IMG/VR virus record: IMGVR_UViG_3300027852_000147
Span: 1 to 27,146 of that record
Strand: one strand, 5' to 3'
DNA: 27,146 bases
Origin: a virus
Below are positions 1 to 13,836 of this stretch, in pieces (position 1 is the first letter of the stretch; each line of letters begins with the position of its first letter). The translations under genes were made by a program, and so were the position numbers. The notes beneath the pieces are model-generated. The model was not told where the DNA came from, made no database searches, and saw only the letters and a list, made by a program, of their open reading frames with translations.

Positions 1-663
1 TTCGATTTTGAACCACGAAACGCTGCCGCTGCATTTAAAATGTTTGGCGAAAGGGGAACACCCGCCGCAATCGCTCTAATCACAAAGGGGGCATCACTAA
101 AAAATGAGTTACACGAAACCGAGACAGAAGACCAAACGATATCAGAAGAACCAACAAAAGCGAAAATACATAAACTGGGACAAAAAGGACCATGGGGCGA
201 TTACGCCGCCAGTTTGTATCGATCCGGGTTTTTCTACGCACCCAAAGTCTTAGAGGCATTAGGGACTGATAAACAATACCGGAACTGGATACAAACCCAA
301 CCAAGCGCCTATAGCAGCGATTTTAGCGAGTGGATTCACGGGGAAGGCCGATGTATTGCCGCACACGTTAGAAGGGCAGGAGAGGCTGGTACGGGCTATA
401 AACCACCCTATTCCTGTATACCCCTAACGGACAAAGAACACCAACTGCAGCACCAGCAAGGGGAAAACGCCTTAGACGGCATGGATTGGAATAAACTCAA
501 AAATGAATACTTGGTTAAATGGGCCGTTGATCAACTTTATGTGATATTTGGTGTCGATTCTTTGACAAAAATGCACCCTAATGATTTCGTCGATTGGTGT
601 CAGCAAAATGATTTAATCCCCTTCGTACCGAAGATGTACAAGAAATTCGAAGGGGCGGCATGA
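1..663 (+). CDS. Ref/DUF968-like HNH nuclease, 5' end outside the window
   Basis: The frame is open from base 1, so the gene probably starts upstream; the first ATG inside the window is at 40. The C-terminal half holds a Cys-x3-His-Val-Arg segment, then a Gly-Thr-Gly-x-Lys-Pro-Pro segment, then Ile-Pro-Leu and two spaced histidines before Gln-Gly-Glu (roughly residues 105-145 counted from the ATG at 40). This is the arrangement of the HNH-type zinc/metal site in the phage Ref and DUF968 families. Those proteins cut or nick DNA during recombination, in the case of Ref together with RecA. It lies directly before a RusA-like resolvase, as expected for a phage recombination module. The TGA stop (661-663) overlaps an ATG at 660. 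The family call rests on the motif; nuclease activity is inferred. Confidence 0.6.
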   Translation, partial: FDFEPRNAAAAFKMFGERGTPAAIALITKGASLKNELHETETEDQTISEEPTKAKIHKLGQKGPWGDYAASLYRSGFFYAPKVLEALGTDKQYRNWIQTQPSAYSSDFSEWIHGEGRCIAAHVRRAGEAGTGYKPPYSCIPLTDKEHQLQHQQGENALDGMDWNKLKNEYLVKWAVDQLYVIFGVDSLTKMHPNDFVDWCQQNDLIPFVPKMYKKFEGAA

Positions 664-989
664 TTGAATATTAAGATCGAGCTTCCATATCCATTGCCAT
701 TATGGAATCGCATTCTTGCCATGAATCACCACGAAAGGAGCCAATTACGCCATTGGATACACGACTCATTATCGCAGTTACAAGTTATCGATGGGGACAG
801 CACGACCCAGATGGTGTATCGATTAAAGCCGTCTTGGATGGCCTTATCAAGTGCGGATTATTACGCGATGATTCGACCGACGAAATACAAAAAATCTGTC
901 TGCGTAGCAAAAAAGCGAAAAACAAGACGTTGGAACGAACAACAATTGAAATCTATCACGAAGGGGAAAACGTAAATGCATGGTGTTGA
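664..989 (+). pseudogene. RusA-like Holliday-junction resolvase, split between two frames
   Basis: Two frames together make one RusA-like protein. From TTG 664 the first frame gives the N-terminus, with PYPLPLWNRILAMNHHER and then RHWIHDSL. The second frame, entered by about 770 after a -1 shift, gives DPDGVSIKAVLDGL and then GLLRDDST. That is the RusA active-site pattern of Asp-x-Asp, a lysine four residues on, and a later Asp-Asp. The first frame stays open to 975 and the second to 989. An ATG at 660 overlaps the upstream stop (ATGA) but meets a TAA after four codons, and it is in the same frame as the C-terminal part. The ancestral gene may therefore have started at 660 and suffered two indels. 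RusA resolves Holliday junctions; as written this locus would not make an intact enzyme. Decay, a base-calling error and recoding are all possible. Confidence 0.6.
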
Positions 990-1350
990 CAAACCAATGG
1001 TGATTGCACGATTGCGTGAGTGGGGCTTTTGGTTACGCTCAGCCCGGTCCCCAGGTCAAGATTACACACTTTCACGGATGGACAGCCCATTAACCAAGAA
1101 GCGCACAGTTAAGCCTGTATACCGCAGCGAGAGCGCCGAGAACCTTGATTTAATCATGAGCTTTCATATGGATAAGGACGCGATACACGTATTAGAATTG
1201 TACTATGCAAAACAAGTACCGGCCTCAAGCGGTGCCGCCGCGATGAATTGCAGTATCAGGACGTATACCGCCAAGCGATATGAGGCACAAAGTATATTAA
1301 TCGGTGTCTTAAGTGCAATAAATTCACATCAATTGCCTAAAATTGCTTGA
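976..1350 (+). CDS. Q-type late antitermination protein (Phage_antitermQ-like)
   Basis: This 124-residue protein has the layout of the short phage Q antiterminators. An N-terminal Leu-x-Glu-Trp-Gly-x-Trp motif lies at about residues 13-19. A Tyr/Pro/Lys-rich middle follows, then a C-terminal helical part in which LELYY is followed by a Cys-Ser helix-turn-helix-like segment and a closing ILIGVL stretch. Such proteins load on RNA polymerase near the late promoter and let it read through terminators. The ATG directly follows the TAA of the overlapping upstream frame, and an AGGGG SD sits about nine bases ahead. It is the last gene of the recombination module and is followed by an intrinsic terminator, as Q usually is. 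The genes beyond that terminator run on the other strand. The family call rests on pattern and position. Confidence 0.6.
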   Translation: MHGVDKPMVIARLREWGFWLRSARSPGQDYTLSRMDSPLTKKRTVKPVYRSESAENLDLIMSFHMDKDAIHVLELYYAKQVPASSGAAAMNCSIRTYTAKRYEAQSILIGVLSAINSHQLPKIA

Positions 1351-1463
1351 TTCGGCACCGAGGAACTGCTATTTTTGGTATATACTTGAAATGATTATAA
1401 ATTCAATCACAGAATCATCTTAAGTCGTTGAAATTTTTGCGTAAATGAGTAGTGGGCATTTAA

Positions 1464-1490
1464 GGGCCAACCTCAAATGGCCCTTTTTTT
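1464..1490 (+). terminator. Rho-independent terminator after the Q-like gene
   Basis: A perfect 6-bp stem (GGGCCA/TGGCCC, 1464-1469 with 1478-1483) and an 8-base loop are followed by seven T. It is oriented for the plus strand. It stands about 115 bases after the Q-like gene, where tR'-type terminators lie, and it abuts the stop codon of the converging minus-strand gene. Confidence 0.8.
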
Positions 1491-1674
1491 AATTAGACCA
1501 AAGTGGTTTAAGACCGTTAATAATTACCGCAACAACCGCAGCAATACCCAAAATTAACCAATACATGCGCTGAGCTTCCCAGTGGTATTCTTGCGCTAAT
1601 TGTTTGCGAATTTCGCCACGTATCCTGTCTAATTCGGTAAGTTTGGTTTGATGTTCTAATTCGTCTCTTTGCAT
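1489..1674 (-). CDS. Small single-span membrane protein, function unknown
   Basis: This 61-residue protein has a charged, probably helical N-terminal half (about residues 1-33, rich in Glu, Arg and Gln). One hydrophobic segment (about 38-54, WLILGIAAVVAVIING) and a short tail follow. The layout suggests a helix exposed on one side of the membrane and a single anchor. A purine-rich SD (GAGAGG) precedes the ATG. It is the last gene of a minus-strand group with a two-span membrane protein and a BamE-like lipoprotein. Phage holins and spanin-like proteins can look like this, but no endolysin is nearby and no family was recognised, so a lysis role is only one possibility. Confidence 0.6.
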   Translation of the reverse strand: MQRDELEHQTKLTELDRIRGEIRKQLAQEYHWEAQRMYWLILGIAAVVAVIINGLKPLWSN

Positions 1675-1684
1675 AGTAAACCTC

Positions 1685-2062
1685 TCAGAAAACTTTAAAA
1701 ATAATTGTAAAAATGGGTGTTTCTACTCTATCTTTGAATAGCTTTATTTGCGCCACAACAAGATCAGGATTCATCAACTTAGTAGGATCAAGTGAAGTTG
1801 TTAAACCATCTAATGAGACGGTTATTGCGGTCATATGTTTTGTTATACGCTTGTTAATATATAAAAAAAACATCGTAAGAAAAAGACAAGCATAAGAAAT
1901 ATAACCCGCATAATTGGCGTCTAAAAACAAAACATTACCAAGAGCCACAATAACAACCAAGACGTGAAGATATAAAATAAATTGACCATACCTTATTAAT
2001 TGATTCATACGTTTAAATGATTGCTGTACTAAGTTATCGATATGAATAAGAAATTTTTTCAT
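1685..2062 (-). CDS. Two-span membrane protein, function unknown
   Basis: This 125-residue protein has two hydrophobic segments, about residues 27-48 and 52-69. They are separated by a short Asp-Ala-Asn-Tyr turn and followed by a basic stretch (INKRITKH) and a soluble C-terminal half. The basic residues after the second span suggest both ends lie in the cytoplasm. Its ATG overlaps the stop of the lipoprotein gene upstream (ATGA), which implies translational coupling. With its neighbours it forms an envelope-directed gene trio. Immunity or superinfection exclusion is a plausible phage role for such a trio, but this is inference; no family was recognised. Confidence 0.6.
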   Translation of the reverse strand: MKKFLIHIDNLVQQSFKRMNQLIRYGQFILYLHVLVVIVALGNVLFLDANYAGYISYACLFLTMFFLYINKRITKHMTAITVSLDGLTTSLDPTKLMNPDLVVAQIKLFKDRVETPIFTIIFKVF

Positions 2063-2376
2063 CTACCCAAAACAAACCAAAAATCTGTAGAGAAAGCAAT
2101 TTGGCAACTTGCACCAAAACTAGGTAATTTCTTAGTTTGTAGTCGCGACACCTTGCCATCAATAAATAATATTTCGGCAAAATCAGATTGTCTCATCCCT
2201 GTCACACAGTATTGCCATAGTTCTTGAACGCCTTGTACTTTGACGTTTTGTGGATATCCCATAATTTGCGTCACTTGGTCAGAGTTGTAACCTTTTTTAA
2301 CCGTGTGCGCTTTGATTGATGGTAGATTATGAGCGCAGCCGGTGATGAATAAAGCCATAATAATAAGTTTTTTCAT
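2059..2376 (-). CDS. BamE/SmpA-OmlA-like small lipoprotein
   Basis: The start at 2376 is chosen over an ATG ten codons upstream because it has a GAGG SD at correct spacing and opens directly into a signal peptide. That peptide is MKKLIIMALFITG followed by Cys14, with Ile-Thr-Gly-Cys as the lipobox. The mature part contains VKKGYNSDQVTQIMGYP and, further on, a Trp-x-Tyr-Cys segment. This is the characteristic start of the SmpA/OmlA (BamE) fold, in which a Gly-x(3)-Gln-Val turn is followed by a Gly-x-Pro. The protein is predicted to be lipidated and to face the periplasm. In bacteria BamE belongs to the outer-membrane assembly machine. A phage copy could modify envelope assembly or block receptors, but no direct evidence separates these. 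It is about 105 residues long, close to BamE size. Confidence 0.7.
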   Translation of the reverse strand: MKKLIIMALFITGCAHNLPSIKAHTVKKGYNSDQVTQIMGYPQNVKVQGVQELWQYCVTGMRQSDFAEILFIDGKVSRLQTKKLPSFGASCQIAFSTDFWFVLGR

Positions 2377-2377
2377 G

Positions 2378-2599
2378 TTAATCCTCGCGAAATCCAGCTT
2401 CATCAAGCCGTATTTTTAATAAATCCAGTGAATTGGCAGGCATACGGTTGTTTTTACTCACAGCCAGCCAAGAGCCTACCCCGCTTTCACTCGGACCACC
2501 CCACTTAACCGATGTAAGTAAATCGACAATATCGGGGATAGTAAGACGGTGTAGCGATTTCAAGCGCCTAAGTTCTTCATTTGTTGGATTTGTGACCAT
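2378..2599 (-). CDS. Small putative HTH DNA-binding protein
   Basis: This 73-residue protein begins with NEELRRLKSLHRLTIPDI and then a DLL turn. That resembles the first helices of XRE/Cro-type proteins. The centre is unusual (VKWGGPSESGVGSWLAV), where a normal helix-turn-helix would have its recognition helix. The end (MPANSLDLLKIRLDEAG) looks like the last helix of small phage regulators. The SD is AGAGGT, six bases before the ATG, and it lies inside a tandem repeat. The stop precedes the lipoprotein start by one base, so the two are probably co-transcribed. The DNA-binding call is tentative. Confidence 0.5.
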   Translation of the reverse strand: MVTNPTNEELRRLKSLHRLTIPDIVDLLTSVKWGGPSESGVGSWLAVSKNNRMPANSLDLLKIRLDEAGFRED

Positions 2600-2603
2600 A
2601 ATT

Positions 2604-2629
2604 ACCTCTAATATATACCTCTAATATAT
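2604..2629 (-). repeat. Perfect 13-bp tandem duplication that doubles an SD
   Basis: The unit ACCTCTAATATAT is present twice head to tail (2604-2616 and 2617-2629). Read on the minus strand each copy carries an AGAGGT SD-like sequence. Only the copy nearer the ATG at 2599 is at normal spacing; the other is a displaced duplicate. Confidence 0.85.
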
Positions 2630-2652
2630 ACAACTAATAATATATAATGCTA

Positions 2653-2661
2653 ATTATAGCA
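2653..2661 (-). promoter_or_regulatory. Possible extended -10 promoter for the 2599-1489 gene group
   Basis: The minus strand reads TGCTATAAT here, a consensus -10 hexamer with an extended TGn. It lies over the end of the RadC gene and upstream of the small HTH gene. No good -35 is seen at 16-18 bases, so this is a weak call based on the extended -10 alone. Confidence 0.3.
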
Positions 2662-3139
2662 AACCACGCTCAGCAAAGGAAAGCACGTCATTACCCACAA
2701 CTAAGTGATCCAACACCTTTACATCGACTAAAGCTAAGGCGTTCTTTAAGCCCTGGGTAATGGTTTTATCGGCATTGCTTGGCTCAGATAACCCAGAGGG
2801 GTGATTGTGGGCGAATATGACCGCTGCAGCGTTATGGTGTAGCGCACGTTTGACTATTTCACGTGGATGAACACTCGCGCCGTTAATGGTCCCATAAAAG
2901 GGTGTTTCAAATTCGATCACTTGATTACGGCTATCCAGATATAACACACAGAAACGCTCAGACTCTTGGCAAGATAAGCGCAATTGTATAAATTTGCGGG
3001 TGTCGTCTGGACTGCCCATAACATCCTTATTTTCCAATTGTGCTAATATAATATCGCTGGCCAATTTGAGAATTTCTAAATGTGTTGCGCCTTTAATGTG
3101 GTATGCCCCGTTACTATCTTGTATCATGTGTTTAGCCAT
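2654..3139 (-). CDS. radC: RadC-family JAB-domain protein, short mobile-element form
   Basis: This 161-residue protein has the RadC/MPN (JAB) metalloprotease-like core. His-Asn-His-Pro-Ser-Gly lies at about residues 111-116 with Asp124 as the third ligand (the HxHx7D signature). A VHPREIVKRAL helix precedes it and KVLDHLVVG follows. It lacks the N-terminal helix-hairpin-helix region of chromosomal RadC (about 220 residues), as is usual for copies on phages, plasmids and integrative elements. The biochemical role of RadC is unsettled; its older link to DNA repair has been questioned. The start is set by an AGGGGACC SD. A hairpin lies in the leader just upstream. The gene sits in a block with a J-domain protein and small unknowns typical of mobile elements. 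Confidence 0.9.
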   Translation of the reverse strand: MAKHMIQDSNGAYHIKGATHLEILKLASDIILAQLENKDVMGSPDDTRKFIQLRLSCQESERFCVLYLDSRNQVIEFETPFYGTINGASVHPREIVKRALHHNAAAVIFAHNHPSGLSEPSNADKTITQGLKNALALVDVKVLDHLVVGNDVLSFAERGLL

Positions 3140-3172
3140 TATCTCGGTCCCCTAGATTGTTGATGATGGTCA

Positions 3173-3207
3173 GTGTGTAAAGGGGGATATCGGCCCCCCT
3201 TACACAC
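3173..3207 (-). promoter_or_regulatory. Leader hairpin of radC with a CCGATAT loop
   Basis: On the minus-strand RNA a 14-bp stem (GTGTGTAAGGGGGG with CCCCCTTTACACAC) encloses the loop CCGATAT. One pair is G-U on this strand but A-C on the plus strand, so the structure belongs to the minus-strand transcript. It begins seven bases after the upstream stop and ends 33 bases before the radC ATG. No T-run follows, so it is not a simple terminator. The loop is the same as in the hairpin at 5028-5046. Confidence 0.7.
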
Positions 3208-3213
3208 GATTAA

Positions 3214-3492
3214 TTAATTGTCGTCTTGTGGCCAGTGTTTAACCTCATTATCAAACCCATACTCTGATACCCATACGGAAATTAAGGTGTCGTTATGCCA
3301 CACAATCCGATAGATGTGATTCTCAATCAGGATTTTAAAAATTGATCGCTCAGCGTTCCCCATCTTGTGAGTTTGGAGTGGATTAAAAGCATAGTGATAT
3401 TTCGTTGATATATTCTGTAGGTGTTTCGCGGTTTGTTTAGGCGTCATTCGCGTTGAAATAAACGCCTTATCAGCTAATAAAATTGTATTCAT
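3214..3492 (-). CDS. Unknown small protein of the radC/J-domain block
   Basis: This is a soluble 92-residue protein with no signal peptide or membrane segment. The first third reads like a helix (RMTPKQTAKHLQNI). The second half reads like a beta sheet ending in an Asp-rich tail, with IYRIVWHNDTLISVWVSEYG as its most structured part. The ATG has an AGGGGG SD and follows the upstream stop at 3494 by one base. I do not recognise the family. The block position suggests an accessory mobile-element protein. Confidence 0.65.
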   Translation of the reverse strand: MNTILLADKAFISTRMTPKQTAKHLQNISTKYHYAFNPLQTHKMGNAERSIFKILIENHIYRIVWHNDTLISVWVSEYGFDNEVKHWPQDDN

Positions 3493-3493
3493 G

Positions 3494-3715
3494 TTATCCC
3501 CCTAGTTTATATGGTATGTTGTGAGTATCCAAAATATTCAAAACGAAACCGATCACCGTATCAAAATCAGCATACAACACGGTTAAACCATCGGAATTAA
3601 TGATTTTAAGTCTTGGTTTGTCACTCCCAGGATAAGCAAACATTTGATAGTTTAAGTTGTCACTTAAGAGCGATTGTAACTGTCTGTACTCACTACTTCG
3701 GTATTGAATAGACAT
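3494..3715 (-). CDS. Unknown small protein of the radC/J-domain block
   Basis: The start at 3715 is preferred over an ATG five codons upstream. The sequence GGGACC just ahead of it matches the AGGGGACC ribosome-binding motif used by neighbouring genes, while the upstream ATG has none. The 73-residue product is soluble. It starts MSIQYRSSEYRQLQ and carries a beta-rich middle (KPRLKIINSDGLTVLYADF) and a hydrophobic helix (VIGFVLNIL). No cysteines, metal sites or signal peptide are evident. Family unknown. Confidence 0.6.
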   Translation of the reverse strand: MSIQYRSSEYRQLQSLLSDNLNYQMFAYPGSDKPRLKIINSDGLTVLYADFDTVIGFVLNILDTHNIPYKLGG

Positions 3716-3746
3716 GGTTATCGGTCCCATAGTTGATTGATAGTAA

Positions 3747-3956
3747 CTACTTGGTTTCTAGTGCGTATATAATTTTTTCCTCTAAATGCAACTTTTTATG
3801 TTTACCTAAATACATTACTTCATAGCTGCAAGTAGTTAATAGCATTAATTCGAGTTTGGTCAATTTACGAATAGCCATGTTAAAGTCTGGGTTATTCCCA
3901 TTTAAAAAATTGTGCATAATTGGTGTAAATTTCTTAACTTGTTTATCGGTTAACAT
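3747..3956 (-). CDS. Unknown small helical protein
   Basis: This 69-residue basic protein is predicted to be mainly helical, with segments such as KLTKLELMLLTTCSYEVM and a Lys/His-rich turn. It has a strong AGGGGACC SD. It sits between a zinc-ribbon-like protein and another unknown protein, spaced by short gaps and co-directional, so one transcript is likely. No known domain was recognised. Confidence 0.6.
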   Translation of the reverse strand: MLTDKQVKKFTPIMHNFLNGNNPDFNMAIRKLTKLELMLLTTCSYEVMYLGKHKKLHLEEKIIYALETK

Positions 3957-3971
3957 TTTGGTCCCCTTTGG

Positions 3972-4253
3972 TTAATAACTACGCGATTGTTTAATAATTT
4001 GGTCATGGAATTGTTGGTAGTCTTCATCGGTTAGACTACCCGTGTAATACGTACAATAGATGTAAGATCCTTTTCGGTGTTTGTGGTGAGTAGCATCACA
4101 ATTACACCCATTACGCCGAGCCTCATTTTCATGGGCTTTATCACGGCGCAATGTATCATTCCCGCACTTAGGACAAGCGCCAAGCACTTGCCCTTTGTTA
4201 AGTGATACCCGTTTACGACAAATACGGGTAGAGCATCGATAGTGGTTACTCAC
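3972..4253 (-). CDS. Cysteine-rich zinc-ribbon-like protein
   Basis: This 93-residue protein has cysteines at 7, 12, 27, 30, 50, 52 and 67. CPKCG at 27-31 is a typical zinc knuckle, and a second cluster has Cys50-x-Cys52, His56, His57, His59 and Cys67. One or two structural zinc sites are therefore likely, as in small nucleic-acid-binding or adaptor proteins. The start is a GTG at 4253 inside the end of the upstream gene (8-base overlap), implying coupled translation. The family was not recognised; DNA or RNA binding is only inferred from the zinc sites and the basic charge. Confidence 0.65.
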   Translation of the reverse strand: MSNHYRCSTRICRKRVSLNKGQVLGACPKCGNDTLRRDKAHENEARRNGCNCDATHHKHRKGSYIYCTYYTGSLTDEDYQQFHDQIIKQSRSY

Positions 4254-4458
4254 TGGTTTTGCCTGTAATTACATCGATCTTGGCGTTTTGTATAACGTGT
4301 AGAAATTGATGTAATACGCCGATACTATCTAAATTGATGTTAATCCAGTGAGATTTATAATCACCAGTACAAACTTTGATTTTAATATCAGTGTTATAGG
4401 CTCCTTTTTTAGTTAATTCATCTAAAATTGGCTGTAATTGTGCTTTGTAGTATTCCAT
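4246..4458 (-). CDS. Unknown small soluble protein
   Basis: This 70-residue protein has an N-terminal helix (YYKAQLQPILDELTKKG), a beta-like middle (DIKIKVCTG, WININLDS) and a helical end. A GAGG sits upstream of the ATG. It overlaps the zinc-ribbon gene that follows by eight bases. No motif points to a function. Confidence 0.6.
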   Translation of the reverse strand: MEYYKAQLQPILDELTKKGAYNTDIKIKVCTGDYKSHWININLDSIGVLHQFLHVIQNAKIDVITGKTSE

Positions 4459-4493
4459 GGTTTGCCTCGACTGTTATTTATATGATGAGTTGA

Positions 4494-5000
4494 TTACGCT
4501 TCGACTTGTTTAAATGTTGCGTTTTGTACTTTACGACTACCGTAGGTATCACGTATTTTATCCATTGACCAAAGCCCACGGTTAGCAGACTTGTAACCAG
4601 ATGGACGAAAAGACCATTTCACTTTTTTAGAATTCCAGTTAAAACCGGCAGCTTTCAACGCTTCTTTGTGGGGCTTGGTGTTACCTGATACCCATACCCA
4701 TGAACCGCATATTTCAATCGTAAGACCCAGATTGATAATGGCGTTGATTGCATTGTTAAGCGCATCACCATAGTTAGACGCACCATTTTTGTACGAATCA
4801 GCGGATTCTGTTACGTCAATATTGCGGGTAATAGACTTTAAGGCATCAAAAGCCATATTAAGCAGCTTCATCAACTCAAGCCCAGCCGGGTTACGGTCAG
4901 GATGATACTTCATGGCTAACTTACGATAAGCGGTTTTAACAATATCGGGATTAATGTCCCCGTTGATTTGTAGAATTTTTGCGGCGTCTTGTTGATTCAT
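4494..5000 (-). CDS. J-domain (DnaJ-like) protein with a mobile-element C-terminal domain
   Basis: Residues about 3-60 form a J domain: a helix with YRKLAMKYHPDRN, His33-Pro34-Asp35 in the HPD loop that stimulates the ATPase of DnaK/Hsp70, and a further helix. There is no G/F region or zinc domain, so it is not a full DnaJ. The C-terminal part (about 90-135) carries GSWVWVSGNTKPHKEAL followed by FNWNSKKVKWSFRP. This Trp-rich module is found after J domains on plasmids and phages. It probably recruits host DnaK to a specific partner, which is not known. Its leader has the second CCGATAT-loop hairpin and an AGGGG SD. It is first of the intact genes in this block. Confidence 0.8.
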   Translation of the reverse strand: MNQQDAAKILQINGDINPDIVKTAYRKLAMKYHPDRNPAGLELMKLLNMAFDALKSITRNIDVTESADSYKNGASNYGDALNNAINAIINLGLTIEICGSWVWVSGNTKPHKEALKAAGFNWNSKKVKWSFRPSGYKSANRGLWSMDKIRDTYGSRKVQNATFKQVEA

Positions 5001-5027
5001 AATATACCCCTAGTATATTGTGGTTAA

Positions 5028-5046
5028 GTGTAGATATCGGCTACAC
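5028..5046 (-). promoter_or_regulatory. Leader hairpin of the J-domain gene with a CCGATAT loop
   Basis: On the minus strand a 6-bp perfect stem (GTGTAG/CTACAC) encloses the seven-base loop CCGATAT. It starts two bases after the stop of the upstream broken gene and ends 27 bases before the ATG at 5000. The stem differs from the one at 3173-3207 while the loop and the GTGT...ACAC base are the same. Confidence 0.65.
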
Positions 5047-5048
5047 GG

Positions 5049-5267
5049 TTAAGCGAATAGTTTTACTTCAGAGCAATCGGTCACCTTGAAGGTTATCTCG
5101 CATTTGTAAAGTTTGTCGTATTCTTCGCTGGATACTTCAAAACAGGTATTAGGTTTAATGATGCTGTGTAACTATGAATTAACTGCTAAACCACTAAAAT
5201 CACCATTGATAATTGCAGGGATTAAATGTTTGGCTATAAAAACAGTATTATATTGTGTGATTGGCAT
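5049..5267 (-). pseudogene. Small gene interrupted by one in-frame amber codon
   Basis: From the ATG at 5267 (GAGG SD seven bases ahead) the frame runs 31 codons to a TAG at 5172-5174. It then continues in the same frame for 40 more codons to TAA at 5049. The first part reads MPITQYNTVFIAKHLIPAI then INGDFSGLAVNS. The second begins LHSIIKPNTCFEV and has an acidic, beta-like end (YKCEITFKVTD). An NGD-x-SGL start followed by an acidic helix is seen in many small phage and plasmid proteins of unknown role. A single substitution (for example TAG from CAG, AAG or TAT/C) would explain it. It is the first gene of the radC/J-domain block and may now act only as a leader. Confidence 0.6.
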
Positions 5268-5420
5268 TGTGAACCTCACTAAGTGGTTGATTGATAATAA
5301 ACAGTACTTACTTATTACTAATATTAGCAGTATATACATTATTTAGCAATGGTTACATTAATAGTATTTAACAATTAATTGAATAATTACGTTAACTCAT
5401 TGATTACAAGGGGAATTAAA

Positions 5421-5477
5421 ATGGCTTGCAAGGGAAATAAAAAAGGTAAGAAGCGAAAAGGGTATGGAAAACCTTAA
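5421..5477 (+). CDS. 18-residue very basic peptide with a strong SD
   Basis: MACKGNKKGKKRKGYGKP begins at ATG 5421 behind AAGGGG at good spacing. Nine of 18 residues are Lys or Arg and one is Cys. Too short for a family call. It directly precedes a second small ORF and the small terminase gene, and may be a leader peptide for them. The strong SD is the main support. Confidence 0.4.
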   Translation: MACKGNKKGKKRKGYGKP

Positions 5478-5479
5478 AA

Positions 5480-5626
5480 ATGAAGTCTATCAGCGTGGTA
5501 AACTGCCCTATATGCACAAAGCAAACGGCTGTAGACGTGCGAACACACCAAAACCACATAAAGATATGCCAAGTATGCAGTTACAGGCAGAGGACAAGAT
5601 TGAATGTGTCCCAGCGTAATAGATAG
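5480..5626 (+). CDS. 48-residue zinc-finger-like peptide
   Basis: ATG 5480 opens two bases after the stop of the basic peptide. The product has CPIC at residues 9-12 and, after THQNHIKI, CQVC at 30-33, with His23 and His26 between. Two Cys-x2-Cys pairs of this kind suggest one zinc site. It ends ten bases before the small terminase gene. A competing ORF in another frame (ATG 5464, TAA 5617-5619, 51 residues) covers almost the same DNA with good codon usage but no zinc motif. Only one of the two is likely to be real. The paired cysteines favour this one; the weak SD counts against it. Confidence 0.4.
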   Translation: MKSISVVNCPICTKQTAVDVRTHQNHIKICQVCSYRQRTRLNVSQRNR

Positions 5627-5635
5627 GATAAGAGA

Positions 5636-11231: not shown

Positions 11232-13836
11232 TCCGATCAGTTGGAAGACAATCAACGGGTTTACCGAATCGGTTCTCGCCATACGCTATGACGATCCTAA
11301 GCCGGTCCCTCCGCACCATTTGGAAATGTGGGAATTATGCACCTCGGAGAATCCACAGGTTGCGATTGCTGCTCCGCGTGGAAGCGCAAAAAGTACAGCC
11401 GTAACATTTGCTTATGTGTTGGCGTCGGTTTTATTTGAAGAACACGCCCATGTATTGCTGATTTCGGCTAATGAGGAATTGGCGTCAGGATTTTTGAACG
11501 ACATTAAAGTTGAGTTACAAGAAAACGAAATATTACAAACTCATCCTGCACTCGGAATTAAAAAATTCATTAAAGAAAGAGAAACGGAAATCATTGTTGA
11601 AAAACATTCTGGATTTCGGTTTCGAATCATAGTTAAAGGCGCAGAACAGAGAATGCGTGGCCTGAAATGGGAACGAAAACGTCCCTCTATGGTGGTTTGT
11701 CATAAAAAAGGAACTATCGTAGAAACAGAATATGGATACCATAAAGTAGAAGAACATCCTACTGCAAATGAAGTTAAAAAAGACGGATACGATGTACGTG
11801 TCCATGGATTACCTTATCAAGAACGTGTTACTCCAGAACATCGCTATTGGGGTGTAAAAAAATATTCAAAACAACAATGCAAAATGATAGATGGTAAAAA
11901 ATACCATCACCAAGAATACACTACTTCTGAAGAAGATTGGATAGAAGCACAAAATCTCGATAAAGTATGTTATATCGGACAGAAAATTGACACAGAAATA
12001 TTAACTCCGCAACCTATTGAATATGATTCAAGAAACATTGTAGAGAGAGATGAAAAAGGTCGTGTAATAACTGCTGAAGCAATAATAATTAATAAATTAT
12101 ACCCATGGTTTGATCAAGATGAATTCTGGTGGATGGTCGGATTATGGTGGGGTGATGGCCATTTAACAAAAGATAGAGTTGGCGTCACGATTGCTGACAA
12201 ACAAAAAGATATTATAGGTAAAAGACTCGAAGATTATTTAAAAAAGAATAATAAACCATTTGTAATTGTTGACAAAGAAGAAGCCTGTTACCAATTATTG
12301 TTTTCTGACAGAGCATTATCACGATGGCTTAAAAAATGGAAACACGGCAATTCAAGAAAAGAAGCACCAGAGTGGGTGTTAAAACTCGACCACGAAAAAC
12401 AAAAAAATATCATCCATGGTTACATTGATGCCGATGGATTTGTCGATTACAAAAACCAACAAGTACGATTAACGTCAATTCATTACCCAGGACTAATACA
12501 AGTACAAAAAATATTAGCGAGATTAAATGTCCCATCTTCAATCCGCCATGGACTTGAGCCATCGACAGTTATAATTCGTGGGCAATTACTTAAAACTCAA
12601 AAAAAATATGATTTACGATTCAAGGAAAATGCCTCAATACTTGGGTACGACATACAAAACCAAACACGATATGGCATTCAAAAATGTTTTATCGAAAACG
12701 GATTTTTATGGCGTAAAGTAAAAGAAACTCAATATGTCGAAGAAGATGTATTTATTCCAATTAAAGCCGAATCGCACACATACAATACTGAGTTTGGTTT
12801 AAGTCATAATTGCGATGACTTAGAGGACGAAGAATTAGTCAGCAGTGAATTACGCAGGGAGAAGTTCAGGCGTTGGTTTTACGGTGCGGTTAAACCGATT
12901 ATTCGCGACGGGGGAAAAATTCGAGTCGTCGGCACCGTCATGCACATGGATTCGCTCTTAATGCGACTTATGCCGCCCATGAAGGGCAAGGAAACGGTCT
13001 TTACGCCCTTAAAGATGAGTACGACCGAGAAACGGGCGTGGAAATCAGTGCTTTATCGCGCCCATGACGAAGATTTTAAAAATTTGTTATGGCCTGAAAT
13101 GTACTCAGAGGAACGCCTTAGAGCCATACGTAAGGATTTTGCCGAACAGGGAATGCTAGACGTTTACGGTCAGGAATACCTAAACGATCCGATTGATCAG
13201 ACTACTGCCTATTTTCGAAAAGAAGATTTTATTCCTATGGAAATTGAAGACTTCCAACGGTTTAAGACCTTCTATTGCGCGGGGGATTTGGCCATTACGG
13301 AAAACAAACGATCAGCGTTTACGGCGCTCGGGGCCGGTGGAATGGATAGCGACGGCGTACTGCACTTAGAAGACGTGCGGCGTGGACGTTGGGACTCTTT
13401 GGAAATATCCGACGAGATATTCTCTTTGGCCAGACGATTCGAACCGGATACCTTTCGCTTAGAGGCTGAAAACATCCAACGTTCTATCGGCCCCTTCTTA
13501 TTCAAGCGTATGGACGATGAGCAGCATTATATCAATATCGACGCCAAACCTCCGACCAAAGACAAACTCGCCAGGGCACAGTCTATCCGGGCCAGGATGC
13601 GGGCAGGAAAGGTCAAATTCAACAAAGAGGCCGAGTGGTACGCCGATTTCGAAGAAGAATTGTTGCACTTCCCCAAATGGCCTTACAAGGACCAAGTGGA
13701 TATGTTCGCATGGATGGGTTTGATGCTCGATGAAATGACCGAAGCACCGACCGATGAGGAATACACCGAGGCATGGTTGGAGGAAGAAGAAGAAGACTTT
13801 GAATACACAGGGATTTGTAATACGACAGGGTATTAG
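11215..13836 (+). CDS. Terminase large subunit, interrupted by an in-frame intein
   Basis: TerL is the packaging motor ATPase and headful nuclease. APRGSAKST (residues 53-61) is the Walker A loop. SMVV plus CDDLEDEE forms the Walker B and catalytic acid once the intein (residues 162-532) is removed. GTVMH (573-577) is in the place of the coupling motif. The RNase H-like nuclease has Asp691 in GDLAITENKRSAF and a late DQVDMFAWM segment. Removing the intein leaves 502 residues, the usual TerL size. The start is a GTG at 11215 within the preceding gene. The reading frame is intact through the intein, so full function depends on protein splicing. The stop overlaps that of a converging small gene. 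Confidence 0.92.
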   Translation: MTKQLDPISWKTINGFTESVLAIRYDDPKPVPPHHLEMWELCTSENPQVAIAAPRGSAKSTAVTFAYVLASVLFEEHAHVLLISANEELASGFLNDIKVELQENEILQTHPALGIKKFIKERETEIIVEKHSGFRFRIIVKGAEQRMRGLKWERKRPSMVVCHKKGTIVETEYGYHKVEEHPTANEVKKDGYDVRVHGLPYQERVTPEHRYWGVKKYSKQQCKMIDGKKYHHQEYTTSEEDWIEAQNLDKVCYIGQKIDTEILTPQPIEYDSRNIVERDEKGRVITAEAIIINKLYPWFDQDEFWWMVGLWWGDGHLTKDRVGVTIADKQKDIIGKRLEDYLKKNNKPFVIVDKEEACYQLLFSDRALSRWLKKWKHGNSRKEAPEWVLKLDHEKQKNIIHGYIDADGFVDYKNQQVRLTSIHYPGLIQVQKILARLNVPSSIRHGLEPSTVIIRGQLLKTQKKYDLRFKENASILGYDIQNQTRYGIQKCFIENGFLWRKVKETQYVEEDVFIPIKAESHTYNTEFGLSHNCDDLEDEELVSSELRREKFRRWFYGAVKPIIRDGGKIRVVGTVMHMDSLLMRLMPPMKGKETVFTPLKMSTTEKRAWKSVLYRAHDEDFKNLLWPEMYSEERLRAIRKDFAEQGMLDVYGQEYLNDPIDQTTAYFRKEDFIPMEIEDFQRFKTFYCAGDLAITENKRSAFTALGAGGMDSDGVLHLEDVRRGRWDSLEISDEIFSLARRFEPDTFRLEAENIQRSIGPFLFKRMDDEQHYINIDAKPPTKDKLARAQSIRARMRAGKVKFNKEAEWYADFEEELLHFPKWPYKDQVDMFAWMGLMLDEMTEAPTDEEYTEAWLEEEEEDFEYTGICNTTGY
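11698..12810 (+). mobile_element. LAGLIDADG homing-endonuclease intein in the TerL Walker B
   Basis: The 371-residue insert starts with Cys162 (block A, CHKKGTIVETEYGYHKVEE) and has VTPEHRYWG as block B. It ends SHTYNTEFGLSHN before an extein Cys (residue 533), giving all the residues for standard splicing. Two endonuclease motifs, GLWWGDGHL (acid Asp314) and GYIDADGF (acids Asp405 and Asp407), are present and look active. The insertion falls exactly before the Walker B aspartates. Codon use and base composition are more A+T-rich than in most of the terminase. Confidence 0.93.

Follow-up and report, generated by a model that had tools for sequence, protein, structure and literature searches.

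A repeated intercistronic stem-loop with a common CCGATAT loop in the accessory operon of an uncultivated tailed phage

Results

Two leader hairpins in a minus-strand accessory operon

The stretch of DNA analyzed here (the window) is the entire 27,146-bp record of an uncultivated virus. It is a tailed phage whose genes include those for the terminase, portal and capsid, and its portal is at most about 45% identical to those of GenBank phages. A run of minus-strand accessory genes (1685-5268) includes a RadC-domain gene and a J-domain gene, each preceded by a hairpin. The features are as follows.

2654..3139, minus strand: radC-like gene (PF04002)
3140..3172, minus strand: remainder of the radC leader, with a CTAGGGG ribosome site inside
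3173..3207, minus strand: hairpin 1, GTGTGTAAGGGGGG-CCGATAT-CCCCCTTTACACAC, 14 bp with one G-U and a 7-nt loop
3186..3194, minus strand: core of hairpin 1, GCCGATATC (the loop and its closing base pair)
4494..5000, minus strand: J-domain gene (PF00226; phrog_15863)
5001..5027, minus strand: remainder of the J-domain leader, with a CTAGGGG ribosome site inside; AATATACT/GGTATATT pairing around the site is possible
5028..5046, minus strand: hairpin 2, GTGTAG-CCGATAT-CTACAC, 6 bp, with loop and closing G-C as in hairpin 1
5033..5041, minus strand: core GCCGATATC of hairpin 2

Hairpin 1 begins 6 nt past the stop codon of the gene at 3214-3492 and ends 33 nt ahead of the radC ATG; hairpin 2 begins 2 nt past a TAA and ends 27 nt ahead of the J-domain ATG. 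Both are upstream of the CTAGGGG ribosome site. A preliminary description of this DNA had the coordinates, stems, loop, strand, spacing to the start codons and proximity to stop codons right. The TAA ahead of hairpin 2 ends the reading frame of a small minus-strand gene (5050-5267), despite an in-frame TAG (MPITQYN...AVNS*LHSIIK...KLFA) that could reflect either a nonsense mutation, the presence of two genes, or readthrough.

Minimum free energy folding returned exactly these two hairpins (hairpin 1, -24.8 kcal/mol, z -5.3; hairpin 2, -5.8 kcal/mol, z -3.7). The stability of the full 60-nt leader of hairpin 2 was not unusual (z -0.7). The single wobble, in hairpin 1, is a G-U pair in the sense strand only. 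Exact matches to the core GCCGATATC occur twice in the whole record, at hairpins 1 and 2. The earlier list of CCGATAT copies that have no stem was incomplete, as there is one more at about 11978 on the minus strand. There is no CCGATAT on the plus strand of the window, and therefore no complementary ATATCGG in the window's minus-strand transcripts.

Relatedness of the two hairpins

The sequence of hairpin 2 (GTGTA-G-CCGATAT-C-TACAC) is contained in that of hairpin 1 (GT-GTGTA-AGGGGG-G-CCGATAT-C-CCCCTT-TACAC-AC), such that hairpin 1 can be derived from hairpin 2 by an insertion of 6 bp and the addition of 2 bp. The stems had been called different; they are both paired and not identical, but the GTGTA..TACAC in common makes them related. 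No other GTGTA..TACAC inverted repeat occurs in the window, and CCGATAT is the sole 7-nt loop common to two such hairpins within it. Both leaders also align past the hairpin, as far as the common CTAGGGG ribosome site.

Loop sharing alone calls for caution: an identical 7-9-nt loop somewhere in the window was found in 458 of 4000 dinucleotide shuffles, so that roughly every ninth shuffled window of this length has one. An identical loop together with a common 5-nt stem stretch was found in 2 of 4000, by a criterion that was picked after inspection of the sequence and that leaves uncounted the position of the hairpins in two leaders of one operon. Because the hairpins have both the loop and the stem ends in common, and because the leaders align beyond them, we regard the pair as a repeated element.

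A third copy in a related phage

The closer relatives of this phage, by terminase identity, are G012 (85%), G013 (79%), G014 (66%) and two smaller contigs. No radC or J-domain gene was found in the parts of G012, G013 and G014 that were read; in G012 and G013, the interval between the homologues of the window genes at 976-1350 and 5636-6217 is occupied by other minus-strand accessory genes. In this syntenic region, on the minus strand, G012 contains TTGAGG-CCGATAT-CCTCAA, with loop and closing G-C identical to those in the window and the remaining stem different, yet paired. The stem can be extended through a G-G mismatch by an outer 4-bp CGGG/CCCG helix, and with that helix counted the hairpin follows a TAG by 6 nt. 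About 220 nt separate this copy from the start of the next clear gene downstream, and it is thus not a radC or J-domain leader.

A stem of at least 6 bp around CCGATAT arose in 18 of 2500 shuffles of G012, a figure to be discounted somewhat, because five relatives were inspected and because CCGATAT is in excess in G012 (16 observed, 6 expected). Outside the window, the G012 copy was the only one with a stem of at least 6 bp among about 425 CCGATAT sites in the loci then scanned, close to the background rate (3 of 1088 for four control heptamers in the same scan). Its weight therefore comes mainly from its syntenic, post-stop location. In an alignment of the three copies (n = 3), 18 of 18 pair cells were paired and four of the six pairs were altered on both sides; in slid controls, pairing fell to 56-67%.

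Searches for further copies and the radC RNA motif

The radC RNA motif (RF01754), which takes its name from radC, is listed among the candidate structured RNAs of Proteobacteria (Weinberg et al. 2010, PMC2864571). The preliminary description had raised the possibility that the hairpins belong to it, but neither gave a match to its covariance model in a search with all 4227 Rfam 15 families (cmscan). The only Rfam match at the hairpins was a chance-level one to traJ_5 (21.7 bits, gathering threshold 50, E 2.4); at E values up to 10, the stretch searched gave four matches in all, each at chance level and to a family other than the radC motif. The resemblance to the motif is that one window copy precedes a RadC-domain gene, by 33 nt. 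The window element differs in being one simple hairpin with a second copy before a J-domain gene, and neither hairpin 2 nor the G012 copy is upstream of radC. In IMG/VR, about 45 relatives of the radC and J-domain genes (mostly 45-59% identical) lacked such a hairpin in their leaders, which also speaks against the radC RNA interpretation.

A covariance model built on the three copies gave nothing significant beyond them in about 100 phage loci (about 1.2 Mb), and no hairpin copy was found in the relatives G014, L250 and L251. Across 1.4 Mb from other related phages there were a handful of hairpin pairs with a shared loop, which is the background level. In IMG/VR, scans for the exact and the gapped pattern gave two matches, both within coding sequence and with the stem unpaired, and the leader DNA gave only chance matches to GenBank phages and plasmids. 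A J-domain search of GTDB genomes returned only remote J-domain matches, and one distant match came from 369 genomes of a single class when these were searched by capsid for related prophages.

Possible function as an RNA element

We favor, at about even confidence, the interpretation that the two hairpins are a repeated intercistronic RNA stem-loop of the minus-strand accessory operon, acting at the mRNA level as a processing or stability site or as a translational operator. Three properties point to RNA: the position after a stop codon and before a ribosome site, the G-U pair found in the sense strand only, and the pairing that is kept as the stem sequence changes. The hairpin would be carried in a polycistronic mRNA transcribed across it, and would fold in the interval between the stop codon of one gene, which it directly follows, and the next gene's ribosome site. 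There it may set the expression of the downstream cistron (radC or the J-domain gene). The ribosome site stays outside the hairpin, which makes its simple occlusion unlikely; intercistronic processing or stabilization, or a factor that reads the loop, would be reasonable mechanisms. An intrinsic terminator is disfavored by the absence of a U-tract (the tails are TGACCATC and TTAACCAC), and a terminator scan listed neither hairpin.

The preliminary description had likened the pair to a conserved cis-acting RNA. The G012 copy is in keeping with this in that the loop is kept while the stem is altered yet paired, but three copies, two of which share ancestry or arose by duplication, do not amount to proof. 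Conservation of the loop suggests a binding partner: the closing G-C and the CCGATAT loop may be recognized by a trans-acting factor (a phage or host protein, or an RNase), with the stem needing only to pair. A more specific proposal is a post-transcriptional element particular to this phage family, in which G[CCGAUAU]C, whatever the stem that pairs beneath it, is bound by an RNA-binding protein not yet described (encoded by the phage, or hijacked from the host) that co-regulates the radC-like gene, the J-domain gene and other accessory genes; we hold this tentatively and think it unlikely. If the loop is truly selected, then the hairpins would define a small regulon of accessory genes in an uncultivated phage group and would point to an RNA-binding regulator not yet described. 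If it is not, then they would be ordinary stabilizing hairpins.

Hairpins near ribosome sites are well known in phages, both as translational operators (MS2-type) and as sites of mRNA processing and decay in T4. The window hairpins resemble these in being small stem-loops near a phage mRNA ribosome site, the loop being fixed while the stem varies. They differ in lying 27-33 nt upstream of the start codon with the ribosome site free, and in having no known binding protein. T4-type phages also have promoter-early stem-loop (PeSL) cassettes, repeated at the junctions of accessory or early genes. The window hairpins are likewise stem-loops repeated at such junctions; unlike PeSL cassettes, they are not followed by a sigma-70 promoter-like site, they are in another type of phage, and there are only two copies. 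The element is thus of a familiar kind, the phage intercistronic hairpin, in a new instance whose conserved loop lacks an explanation. Overall, we judge the element to be probably real, with a modest role in control or processing at the level of the mRNA (less likely of the DNA), and not a member of the radC RNA motif.

Alternative explanations

The hairpins could be ordinary structures that block exonucleases or insulate cistrons, with loops that are identical through duplication of a leader cassette and not through selection. We consider this improbable, but it is a serious rival in every respect except loop identity, because post-stop stem-loops that have no U-tract and a loop of their own are frequent in related phages (e.g., L244, L248 and L256). 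With unrelated loops so common in this group, a hairpin at such a position needs no loop-binding partner. The alignment of the two window leaders along their length is as duplication predicts; left unaccounted for is G012, where an unrelated stem carries the same loop and closing pair.

One of these phages, L256 (G014), has a minus-strand operon (4160-10586) in which several intercistronic stem-loops, varied in their loops, lie just ahead of ribosome sites.

It is also unlikely, in our estimation, that the element is a dyad in double-stranded DNA to which a dimeric accessory-operon regulator binds, CCGATAT forming the spacer or core of the dyad. The evidence for such a site comes largely from G013, which has TGTGA-CCGATA-TCACA in the syntenic region, on the same strand, between divergent accessory and plus-strand genes. 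This dyad is not in a leader; the promoter of the minus-strand accessory operon, TTGACA-N16-CATAAT, has its expected start about 71 bp downstream of it. The consensus for CRP-type operators is TGTGA-N6-TCACA, and we take the G013 sequence to be a perfect dyad of this type, with CCGATA as the spacer. The best match of G013 to the covariance model, which is this dyad, was weak, however (13.9 bits, E 4.7, not significant), and a stem as good as that in G013 arose in 137 of 2500 shuffles, so that coincidence is possible.

The window dyads do have GTGTA/TACAC in common, but the spacing between these half-sites differs by 12 bp between the two copies, and the arms of the G012 copy are unrelated. Compared with a CRP-type operator, the half-sites differ and the window spacing is odd and unequal; no TGTGA-N6-TCACA with two or fewer mismatches was found at either hairpin, and the window-wide count was at chance level. 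In addition, the window copies are post-stop, inside the operon, with no promoter-like site positioned to use them. If the G013 dyad is related to the window hairpins, it favors a DNA site, and for this reason we hold the RNA-level interpretation at no more than even confidence.

G013 (locus L248) has a second feature of its own. Two accessory-operon promoters on the minus strand (4700-4860 and 3260-3380) carry the same TTGACAGGTGGGCGCTCAC block, which spans the -35 element and the spacer and forms an imperfect dyad that may serve as a repressor operator. In one of the two, the expected start is preceded, at about 71 bp, by the CRP-type site TGTGACCGATATCACA, a perfect match.

Chance, that is, unrelated hairpins with a coincident loop, is very unlikely: the frequency of common loops in shuffled windows and the 6-bp stem at one of the other CCGATAT sites would allow it, but the common stem ends on one strand of one operon, the like placement relative to stop and start codons, and the presence of a third copy where a relative is syntenic stand against it.

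We regard as equally remote the idea that the core, as GCCGATAT, serves each gene as the -10 element of a promoter of the sigma-28 (FliA) type. The hairpin core is nearly equal to such an element; in L001, which has a 52% identical radC, TAAAGT-type / GCCGATA elements lie mostly 36-44 nt ahead of genes, and in the window the loop sequence begins 40 and 54 nt before the ATG codons. The sigma-28 promoter, with TAAAGTTT 11 nt upstream of GCCGATAA, was rejected because TAAAGTTT is absent at the proper distance from both window sites, where the -35 positions are instead TTAATCGT and CTATTCGC. A scan for the full motif with up to three mismatches gave chance matches only, neither at the hairpins, and no promoter-like site ended at the core. 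With a matrix derived from L001, the site at 3193 scored 11.0, compared with 28-41 for L001 gene-start promoters, and the site at 5040 was outside the top 12. A sigma-28 promoter also accounts for neither dyad.

The L001 promoters (L001/G001, IMGVR_UViG_3300010392_003462) are of interest in themselves. There are ten near-perfect sigma-28 (FliA)-type promoters at 456-5040 on the plus strand, TAAAGT(T/A)T-N11-GCCGATA(T/A), and most of them lie 36-44 nt ahead of a small gene, with radC among these genes. TAAAG-N14-GCCGATA has 11 matches in L001, compared with none for a reversed control. These promoters may represent a regulon, early or of the leading region, that depends on a sigma factor of the flagellar type; a literature search on phage sigma-28 early promoters found nothing relevant.

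Other features of the window

EcoRV sites (GATATC) showed no bias in the window (9 observed, 8.6 expected). The large terminase gene (11215-13836, plus strand) has an intein-like insertion with a LAGLIDADG_3 domain; the terminase of the relative L247 seems to have an insertion too, and that of L248 has none. A sulfotransferase-domain gene (9861-10655, plus strand; PF00685, E 3e-22) is unusual phage cargo.
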